Below, piece by piece: positions 26,826 through 43,400 of a stretch of 54,141 nt of DNA (position 1 is its first letter; each line of letters opens with the position of its first letter). Below the pieces are notes generated by a model that worked only from the letters and a program-made list of their open reading frames with translations, did not search any database and was not told the origin of the DNA. The position numbers and the translations under genes are program-made. The DNA comes from Longimicrobiales bacterium (lineage in GTDB: Bacteria > Gemmatimonadota > Gemmatimonadetes > Longimicrobiales > Gaopeijiaceae): assembly GCA_028278645.1 (NCBI GenBank), contig JANQDZ010000046.1:1-54141 (forward strand), given 5' to 3'.

Positions 26826-27887
26826 TCAGACCACCTGAATTCGGCCTGGCGGGCCCTCCTCCGTTTGGCCGATGACCACGGCGGCCGGGACCCGGTCCTG
26901 GAGCTTGGATAGAAGGACTGGGAGGACATCCGGGGAGACCGCCATCAGGAGACCGCCAGAGGTCTGGGCGTCGGCCAAGAGCAGTCGCCTGGCCTCGGGC
27001 AGGTGGTCCGAGAAATCGACTTCTCCCTCGACGTCTCCCAGGTTCCTCTTCGTCCCACCGGGGAACCTCTCGGTTTGAGCCAACTCCCACGCGCCGGCAA
27101 GGAGCGGTACTGCTCCGCTCTCGATCCTGGCTGACACACCGGAAACCCGGAGCATTTGTCTGAGGTGGCCCAGGAGTCCGAAGCCGCTCACATCCGTGGC
27201 CGCCCGTACCCCGGCTTCCATCATGCTCTCACCTGCCGCCCGATTGAGCTCCGCCATGGAAGCGGTGGCAGCTTCAATGGCCAGAGCCGGCGCTTTGCCA
27301 GCTTTGATGGCAGTGGCGATGATCCCTGTCCCGATGGGCTTGGTGAGGACCAGGCTTTGTCCAGGGAGCGCACGGTCGTTCGTGCACATGTGGGCAGGGT
27401 CAACTTCTCCGATGGCCACGAGGCCGTACTTCGGTTCGGCGTCGTCGACGGAGTGGCCGCCGAGGATGGGTATGCCGGCTTCACGACATTTTTCGGCGCC
27501 GCCTTTGATGATCTCCTCCAGGGATCCCTCCTCCAGGTGTTTTCGGGGGTAAGCCAGGAGGTTCAGGGCGAAGAGAGGGGTGGCTCCCATCGCATAGAGA
27601 TCCGAGAGAGCGTTGGCGGCGGCGATCTGGCCGAAAGCATAAGGATCGTCGACAACGGGCGTGAAAAAATCCACCGTCACGACGAGGGCCCGGTCCTCCT
27701 CCAACAGATACACTGCGGCGTCGTCGCCGGTGGAAGCGTCCACGAGCGTGTTTGCGTCCGCGGTGGGAGATACGTGGCGCAGTACCTGCGCCAACTCGGC
27801 CATCCCGAGCTTACAGGCTCAACCCGATCCGTGGGAAAGCTGTGTCAAGCGAAGCTTGGGTTTTTGGTCTCTCGGTTCGTCCTTCAT
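26826..27887 (-). CDS. selD: Selenide, water dikinase (selenoprotein)
   Basis: Makes selenophosphate from selenide and ATP for selenocysteine and selenouridine synthesis. The true start is ATG 27887 (preceded by GGAG), giving 353 residues; the frame reads through an in-frame TGA at 27819-27821 at position 23. That position is the catalytic Cys/Sec of SelD: the context is LSHGSG-U23-ACKLG with the essential Lys26. The rest of the protein is intact (TGDDAAVY, DFFTPVVDDPY, AAANALSDLYAMG, GGHSVDD). Simple gene callers would begin at the internal ATG 27803 and lose the active site. A SECIS-like hairpin follows the UGA. Implies SelA, SelB and tRNA-Sec elsewhere in the genome. Confidence 0.93.
27785..27818 (-). 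promoter_or_regulatory. SECIS-like hairpin after the selD UGA
   Basis: Read on the minus strand, the first bases after the UGA fold into a lower stem CCTG/CAGG and a perfect upper stem CTCGG/CCGAG closing a 5-nt loop GAUGG. The loop begins about 15 nt after the UGA, as expected for bacterial SECIS elements read by SelB, which tolerate much primary-sequence variation. Confidence 0.6.
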
Positions 27888-28089
27888 CTCTCTCCGATTG
27901 TGGGCCGATGGAAACCCAGAGGGTTACGCGGGTATCTCGTGCACTCGGCTTGGGACCCGAAAGGCCCAATCTAGGCATCCCGGTTTTCCCAGGTAAGTGA
28001 AACGTTCTGAATCAGCGATGTCTTCTGAAGATGCCATCCAACATGCGGTCCGTCGGTAGCACCCCTATCGGCTCAGGAGCCACTGGGGC

Positions 28090-40430: not shown

Positions 40431-43400
40431 ATGACCGAAGGAATCAAACGGCGGGACTTCCTCAAGGTAGTCGGAGCTGGAGGGGCCGGAGCCAGCATGT
40501 TCGGCTGCTCCACCGAGCGAGTGGAAAAGCTCCTTCCCTATGTGGTTCCCGACGAAGAGACCGCCCCTGGAGTGGCGACCTGGTACACCTCCGTCTGCGG
40601 CGAATGTCCGGCGGGGTGTGGGGTTTGGGTCCGGACCCGGGAGGGCCGGGTGGTGAAGGTCGAGGGAAATCCGGACCACCCGATCTCCCAGGGGACCCTC
40701 TGCTCGAGGGGTTACTCGGCTATCCAAGGTCTCTACAACCCTGATCGCCTCTCTTCTCCCATGGTTCGGGGACCAGACGGCTTTTCTCCCATCGGCTGGG
40801 ATGAGGCCGAGGACCTCCTGGCCCGGCGGTTGGGCGAGGGGAACAACCATCTATTCCTGGCTGGTAGTCTGGGCCCTTCTCTGAAGGAGTTGGTAGACAA
40901 TTTTCTCTCCGGGGTCGGCGGAACCAGGCGTGAATACGATGGACTGTCCGAAGCACCCCTTCGAGAGGCGACCCGTATCGCCTTTGGGCGGGACCGAATT
41001 CCCACCTACGATTTTGGACAAGCACGACTGATCTACTCTTTCGGAGCCGACTTCCTCGAGACCTGGCTCTCCCCCGTTTCGCACCACAGGGGTTTTGCGC
41101 AGATGGCCGGGGTGGACGACCATGGATCGAAGGGCCGGATGGTTTTCTTGGCTCCCCGCCTCTCGCTCACCGGACAGAACGCAGACGAGTGGGTGCCGCT
41201 ACGGCCCGGGTCGGAAGCCGTCGTGGCTCTCGCCATGGCCAATGTCATCGTCAGGGAAACCGGAAGCTCCGATACGTATTATCAGCGTTTGCTGGAGGGC
41301 TATGATCCCCGGAGCGCTGGAGAGGTGTCCGGTGTGCCAGCGGACCATATCGAAACCATGGCCCGGCAGTTTGTTGCCGATGCCCCCAGCCTGGCGGTGG
41401 GCCCAGGATTGGCCGGGCATCACCGGAACGCCACCGCGGCCAACCTGGCGGTCCACATCCTGAACCACGTGGCCGGGAATGTTGGCCGCACAGTCCGCCT
41501 CACCGACGTCGACCAGGGTGCGCCCAATCGGCCCTTTGCCGAGCTGGCCTCGGCCATGGAGGCCATGCCCCAGGCTGGCGTGGTGATGGTCCACGGAACC
41601 AACCCCGCATACTCCCTCCCGGCCGGCGCCGGTTTCAACGAGGCCTTCGCCGCCGCCGGCTTCCGGGTTTCGTTCGCATCAAGCATGGACGAGACGGCCG
41701 AACTATGCGATCTGGTTCTCCCGGACCGCCATCCGCTGGAGGCATGGGGGGATTCCAACCCCCGGCCGGGTCTCTACGCCCTTCAGCAGCCCGCCATGCA
41801 ACCCGTTTCGACCTTCGAGTCGAAGCAGGTTGGCGATGTTCTTCTCTCCGTCTCCCTTCGAATGGGGAATGACCTTGGGGCGGCCACCTTCTTCGACTTC
41901 CTCCGAGGGGAATGGCAGGGGATCCAAGCCCAAGTAGCTCCCGGCGATGATTTCGACGCCTTCTGGCGAGAAACCCTCCGAAGAGGGGTGGCCGGCTCCT
42001 ACGTCCAGGCTTCGGAAAGTGGAGCGCAACTCCGGTCCCCCGACGCGATTCTGAACTTTGACGTGCCTGAGCTGGATGGCTCGGGGGAGTTCGCCTTGAT
42101 CGTGTATCCCTCACCCCGTTTCGGAGACGGGAAACACGCCGATCGTCCCTGGCTTCAGGAGCTCCCGGATCCGGTCAGCAAGATGGCCTGGCACTCTTGG
42201 GTGGAGGTACATCCGTCAGCCGCGGAGAGATTGGGTGTGGAGACTGGAGACCTTGTCCGGGTCCAGTCGCCCCATGGAGAGGTGGAGGTTCCGGTCTGGG
42301 CCTACCCGGGAATTCGAGAGGACGCGGTGGCTCTCGCCATGGGCGGAGGGCACAAAAGCTTCGGCCGCTACGCCCGGGGCATGGGCGTGAATGCCATGGA
42401 CCTGCTGCCTGCGGAGGTGGAACAGCCTTCCGGGGCCTTGGTCCACCTGGCTACCCGCGTAAGCCTGGTGCCCACCGGGAACCGGCGGCCCCTGGCCACC
42501 ATCGAAGGCTCGTCGTCACAGCACAATCGGCCCATCGCGCCGGCCGTGGCCCTTTCCAGCATCGCGCACACCGAATCCGGCGGTCAGGCGGATCATGCTG
42601 AAGGAGGTCAGACGGACGAAGGGCACGGCGAGGGTGGTCACGGTGAGTTGAAAGAGATCCAAGCCATGGGGGGCTTTGCCCCCGTTCCCACGGAAGGGAA
42701 GCCGGAAGATTTCCCTCTGGAAGGGAGCCGGTACGGTCAGTACGACCCGGAGGCGAATCCTCGGTGGGCCATGACCATCGACCTGGACAAGTGCACGGGA
42801 TGCAGCATCTGCGTCACGGCTTGCCAGTCCGAGAACAATGTGCCCTGGGTGGGAGAAGAGCAGGTGGCTATGGGCCGGGACATGCATTGGATCCGACTCG
42901 AACGCTACTACGAGACCGTCGACGCCAGCCACGCGGGTCCGTTGGACGTTCGTTTCCTGCCCATGATTTGTCAGCACTGCGGGAATGCACCCTGTGAGCC
43001 GGTCTGCCCGGTGTATGCAGCATATCACACACCGGAGGGGCTGAACGCTCAGGTCTACAACCGCTGCGTTGGGACCAGGTACTGCGCCAACAACTGCCCG
43101 TACAAGGTGCGGGTGTTCAACTGGTTCGGGTTCGCAGACATGGCCAAACCGGGAGACGAGCCTTCTGTGGCGGCGGCGGAGCCCATGAACTGGGGTTACA
43201 ACCCGGACGTGACGGTTCGCAGCAGTGGGGTCATGGAGAAATGCTCCTTCTGCGTGCACCGCATCCGCGAGGTCCAGAACCAAGCCAGGATCGAGGGCCA
43301 ACGACCGTTGGAGGACGGTGAAGTCATGCCGGCCTGTCAGCAGGCCTGCCCGGCCCAGGCCATCACCTTCGGGGACATCCGGGACTCACACTCCAGGGTG

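Follow-up and report, generated by a model that had tools for sequence, protein, structure and literature searches.

The selD gene of an uncultured Longimicrobiales bacterium very probably encodes selenocysteine at its active site, with a candidate SECIS hairpin downstream of the one first noted

An in-frame TGA in the selD gene of a Longimicrobiales bacterium raises the question of whether the selenophosphate synthetase encoded there is itself a selenoprotein and, if so, which RNA hairpin marks the codon for recoding. We analyzed a stretch of 54,141 nucleotides carrying the gene (the window), together with the genome assembly to which it belongs. With the TGA taken as selenocysteine (Sec), the minus strand from 27887 to 26826 translates as a single frame of 353 residues (MKDEPRDQKPKLRLTQLSHGSG-U-ACKLGMAELAQ...), which contains only one internal TGA, at residue 23, and terminates at a second one (Table 1). 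In a profile search the product scored 383 bits against TIGR00476 (selD; cut-off 125), placing it in that family, and both the AIRS and AIRS_C domains were found in it. A standard ORF caller sets the start at 27803 and returns 325 amino acids, which confirms the warning of an earlier note on this DNA that automated annotation would drop 28 residues including the active site. The same note had followed the frame through the TGA up to an ATG at 27887 with a ribosome site; the translation agrees, GGAGAGAG (27895-27888) stands immediately 5' of the ATG (27887-27885) and is probably the ribosome binding site of selD, with a short spacer, and the start region and its position are kept among relatives. 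TGA terminates 14 of the 32 selD genes examined in the order, the present gene included. Because this selD also ends in TGA, UGA would mean both Sec and stop within one message, which is consistent with context-dependent recoding.

Table 1. Features of the selD locus, in positions of the window.
Feature	Position	Strand	Basis and remarks
selD coding sequence	26826-27887	-	353 residues with Sec23, own stop TGA at 26826-26828; translation, TIGR00476, AIRS/AIRS_C
In-frame TGA read as Sec23, catalytic position	27819-27821	-	Translation, conservation in relatives, alignment to Cys17 of E. coli SelD
Best-supported SECIS hairpin, UGGCGCAG-GUA-CUGCGCCA	27775-27793	-	Fold energy, covariation, Sec versus Cys genes
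Upper stem of the first-noted hairpin, AGCUCGG-gaugg-CCGAGUU	27793-27811	-	Stable in the order, without covariation
Start codon ATG and GGAGAGAG	27885-27895	-	Sequence; start position conserved in relatives

Alignment with E. coli SelD (PDB 3u0o, a Cys form) over 311 residues placed the TGA residue on Cys17 and matched Sec23-Ala-Cys25-Lys26 to Cys17-Gly-Cys19-Lys20, so that the N-terminal glycine-rich loop of each protein has its Cys or Sec ahead of a Cys and a Lys. Both share the SHG-G-x-x-C-K block, which reads U-A-C-K here, C-G-C-K in E. coli and U-G-C-K in Desulfosporosinus; E. coli SelD, with Cys17 instead of Sec23, needs no SECIS. From general knowledge of the family, we take Cys17 to be the catalytic residue. 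The alignment to Cys17, along with the sharing of the block by relatives, substantiates the identification of LSHGSG-U-ACKLG as the SelD active-site block.

We assessed conservation of the UGA across 117 genomes of Longimicrobiales, the order to which the bacterium belongs. Exactly one in-frame TGA was found in 66 SelD genes, and a 67th gene is split over two contigs. Only two genes covering the site lack the TGA, and both belong to one genus, g23 (L141 in genome G045 and L142 in genome G025), where Cys stands in a SHGAG-C-ACKLG block that is otherwise identical; tRNA-Sec is still present in G025 despite its Cys-SelD. The closest named relative (L058, a Gemmatimonadetes MAG, 87% identity) has the TGA too, and in the relatives fetched from Gemmatimonadetes and from further afield, including Chloroflexi, Rokubacteria, Acidobacteria, Latescibacteria, Marinimicrobia, Deltaproteobacteria and Desulfosporosinus, the TGA lies inside the same G-U-[AG]-C-K block. 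Cys occupies the site in retrieved SelD proteins of Paenibacillus, Bacillus and Lentibacillus, as it does in most of the Bacillaceae and Paenibacillaceae genes retrieved, and is the sole alternative to TGA among the relatives inspected. The gene thus shows the pattern of a selenoprotein: an in-frame UGA that aligns with Cys of homologues and is kept as UGA in relatives.

Two groups within the sampled genomes depart from this picture. Members of genus g12 (G013 and others; L144 and L150) gave only a distant SelD-like match (36-38% identity), which lies within a frame some 810-860 amino acids long and may belong to the fused SelD forms already known; G013 carries a good tRNA-Sec (74.8 bits). In the sampled members of family f3, no tRNA-Sec above the cut-off was found, and a SelD match was absent with few exceptions.

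The earlier note had made its reading depend on the presence of selA, selB and tRNA-Sec in the genome, and all three were found in the same assembly: SelA at 533 bits, SelB at 318 bits and tRNA-Sec at 75 bits with anticodon TCA. The assembly is fragmented (103 contigs), and since different contigs carry these three genes and selD, correct binning is assumed. A search of the genome for mnmH/selU (selenouridine synthase) found no such gene, making selenouridine unlikely as a use of selenophosphate here.

Other genes of the genome also carry in-frame TGA codons. A Rdx/SelW-like gene (L155; contig C27, 9694-9909) has the CxxU motif IEIEYCVQ-U-NFLP; a hairpin follows its UGA at a distance of about 22 nt, with a GUU apical loop of the same kind as that proposed below for selD, and, judged from its sequence, the gene is a clear second selenoprotein gene. 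Furthermore, four AhpC/TSA-type thioredoxin-fold genes (L160, C74:10481; L163, C74:63804; L164, C39:190235; L165, C18:66184) carry a TGA within the domain. In three, the sequence is VVYRGHW-U-PHC, FWGDW-U-GPC and FWGDW-U-GPC, so that UxxC occupies the site of an expected redox Cys; the remaining one reads ARTGG-U-TVQM. Counting such candidate genes, the selenoproteome of this genome appears sizeable. Neither the formate dehydrogenase-type genes of the genome, the best of which has Cys in the expected RVCH motif, nor its AhpD-type proteins contain a TGA, and a codon-composition scan for more TGA frames near selA, selB and tRNA-Sec and in the window returned noise only. A DsbA-like match with a TGA on contig C10 was set aside, its sequence not confirming a selenoprotein reading.

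The RNA downstream of the UGA can form more than one hairpin. For the full 50 nt after the UGA, the preferred fold consists of two adjacent hairpins, H1 (27793-27811) and H2 (27776-27792, or 27775-27793 with the outer pair). H2 has eight base pairs, an apical loop that begins GU 33 nt after the UGA, and an energy of -12.9 kcal/mol (z -3.87). The published bSECIS model (PMC13188914) describes a small apical loop with G then U, a stem of 4-16 pairs, a distance of 16-37 nt from the UGA and an energy below -7.5 kcal/mol, and H2, with its GUA loop, falls within each of these ranges, as well as showing compensatory changes. Sites within the order vary too little to judge between hairpins, and the decision therefore required Sec genes of other phyla. 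In a gap-free alignment of 60 distinct Sec-SelD sequences (L076, with an inserted codon, was left out), 95% of cells in H2 are paired, with compensatory changes at five of the eight pairs and in 34 cells, a cell count that overstates independent events because the relatives are partly akin; none of 500 shuffles reached the score.

Comparison with synonymous recoding and with Cys genes points the same way. Sec genes of the order keep 7.83 of the 8 H2 pairs (5.49 expected) and other Sec genes 7.28 (5.47 expected), compared to 3.77 against 3.29 in Cys genes. The H2 stretch folds at -4.5 kcal/mol or lower in 60 of 65 Sec genes but in only 2 of 44 Cys genes, one of which is the g23 gene L141, where H2 still folds at -9.5 kcal/mol beside a Cys codon, which looks like what is expected of a recent Sec-to-Cys change. 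In the first 39 nt, a segment that cuts H2 and offers a weaker test, folding relative to synonymous shuffles gave a mean z of -1.02 for the 65 Sec genes versus -0.01 for the 44 Cys genes. An independent sign of RNA-level selection is the raised codon identity at codons 24-35, where 61% of pairs with the same amino acid share the codon, versus 39% in the remaining gene; the stretches with the most conserved synonymous codons begin at codons 25-27. H2 is thus the best-supported SECIS, and a candidate for SelB binding.

The earlier note had instead placed a SECIS-like hairpin at 27785-27817, directly after the UGA. Such a hairpin can fold, at -19.1 kcal/mol once the downstream half is cut off, and its upper stem (that of H1) is kept in the order beyond synonymous expectation (6.66 of 7 pairs versus 5.55). 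In Sec-SelD genes outside the order, however, that stem has fewer pairs than under synonymous recoding (4.31 versus 5.08), and the covariation analysis gave the first-noted hairpin two compensatory cells and a score equalled in 497 of 500 shuffles. The apical loop of this hairpin comes 14 nt after the UGA, short of the 16-37 nt of the bSECIS model (PMC13188914), and its lower stem takes bases of the H2 loop, the full-length fold favoring H2. We therefore rejected it as the SECIS, a role that it probably does not have and in which we consider it quite unlikely to replace H2; of the earlier claim, the folding stands and the location of the conserved, covarying SECIS moves to 27775-27793. H1 is possibly an accessory stem. 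The two alternative folds, H2 or the upstream and longer hairpin in which the lower stem engages the loop of the SECIS, might also act as a switch tuning the amount of SelD; we regard this as a long shot, although, if it were true, a selenium-activating enzyme would sense its own supply via its own UGA codon.

Two further readings would remove the Sec codon altogether. The TGA might stand for TGT or TGC through a sequencing or assembly error, making the protein an ordinary Cys-SelD of the kind that the two g23 genomes and most of the retrieved Bacillaceae and Paenibacillaceae genes encode. Against this stand 67 separately assembled genomes of the order with one TGA in SelD, the TGA of the 87% identical relative and the conservation of the SECIS hairpin alongside it; these independent genomes make the TGT or TGC that the earlier note had named as its counter-case very unlikely, and we give the error next to no weight. 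The true start might instead be the ATG at 27803 returned by the ORF caller, with the upstream frame untranslated or translation stopping at the TGA. That upstream frame, however, encodes the conserved LSHGSG-U-ACKLG block behind a conserved start, and a SelD without the block would miss its catalytic residue and the nearby lysine; a start at 27803 is accordingly hard to credit.

Taken together, these data argue that the product of selD is a bacterial selenophosphate synthetase of the standard kind and at the same time a selenoprotein, with UGA as Sec23 through the H2 SECIS, a reading to which we assign a probability of about 97%. The sequence shows directly that the frame is open, that the UGA is conserved with Cys as the alternative, that the machinery is present and that the RNA hairpin is conserved. 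Recoding as Sec is the best explanation of the UGA because selA, selB, tRNA-Sec (TCA) and one or more other clear selenoprotein genes occur in the genome; with the homology to Cys17 and the conserved TGA/Cys alternation, this also sustains the earlier proposal that the UGA encodes Sec at the SelD active site. By analogy with the family, SelB loaded with Sec-tRNA-Sec (anticodon UCA) would bind the hairpin at 27775-27793 and deliver Sec at the UGA, yielding Sec23 in a flexible N-terminal loop. SelD would convert selenide and ATP to selenophosphate, and SelA would use this for Sec on tRNA-Sec, including the Sec of new SelD.

SelD is established as a selenoprotein, the Sec form making up about 19% of prokaryotic SelD genes, and the protein described here is a Sec-SelD of an already known bacterial type. 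The Sec-SelD proteins of bacteria and archaea and eukaryotic SPS2 belong to the same enzyme family and have Sec at the same single position; nothing essential differs in the present protein. E. coli fdhF carries the prototype bacterial SECIS, whose GCAGGUCUGC apex is presumably similar to that of H2. With respect to the bSECIS consensus (PMC13188914), H2 is alike in loop, stem, distance and energy, although at 33 nt it is close to the far end of the range and, in the order, a second stable stem stands between it and the UGA.

The value of the analysis therefore lies in the right annotation and the relocated SECIS: the corrected gene model restores 28 residues and a catalytic residue otherwise lost, the case being mainly an annotation trap. 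The phylum's name is absent from the main text of two reviews or surveys of prokaryotic selenium use in which it was sought; in this uncultured order, probably of Gemmatimonadota, Sec-SelD is common, accompanied by a full Sec machinery and several more candidate selenoproteins. Elsewhere in the window, at 40593-41492 on the plus strand, a 1033-amino-acid open frame shows weak matches to the formate dehydrogenase alpha family and is probably a molybdopterin oxidoreductase-like gene.
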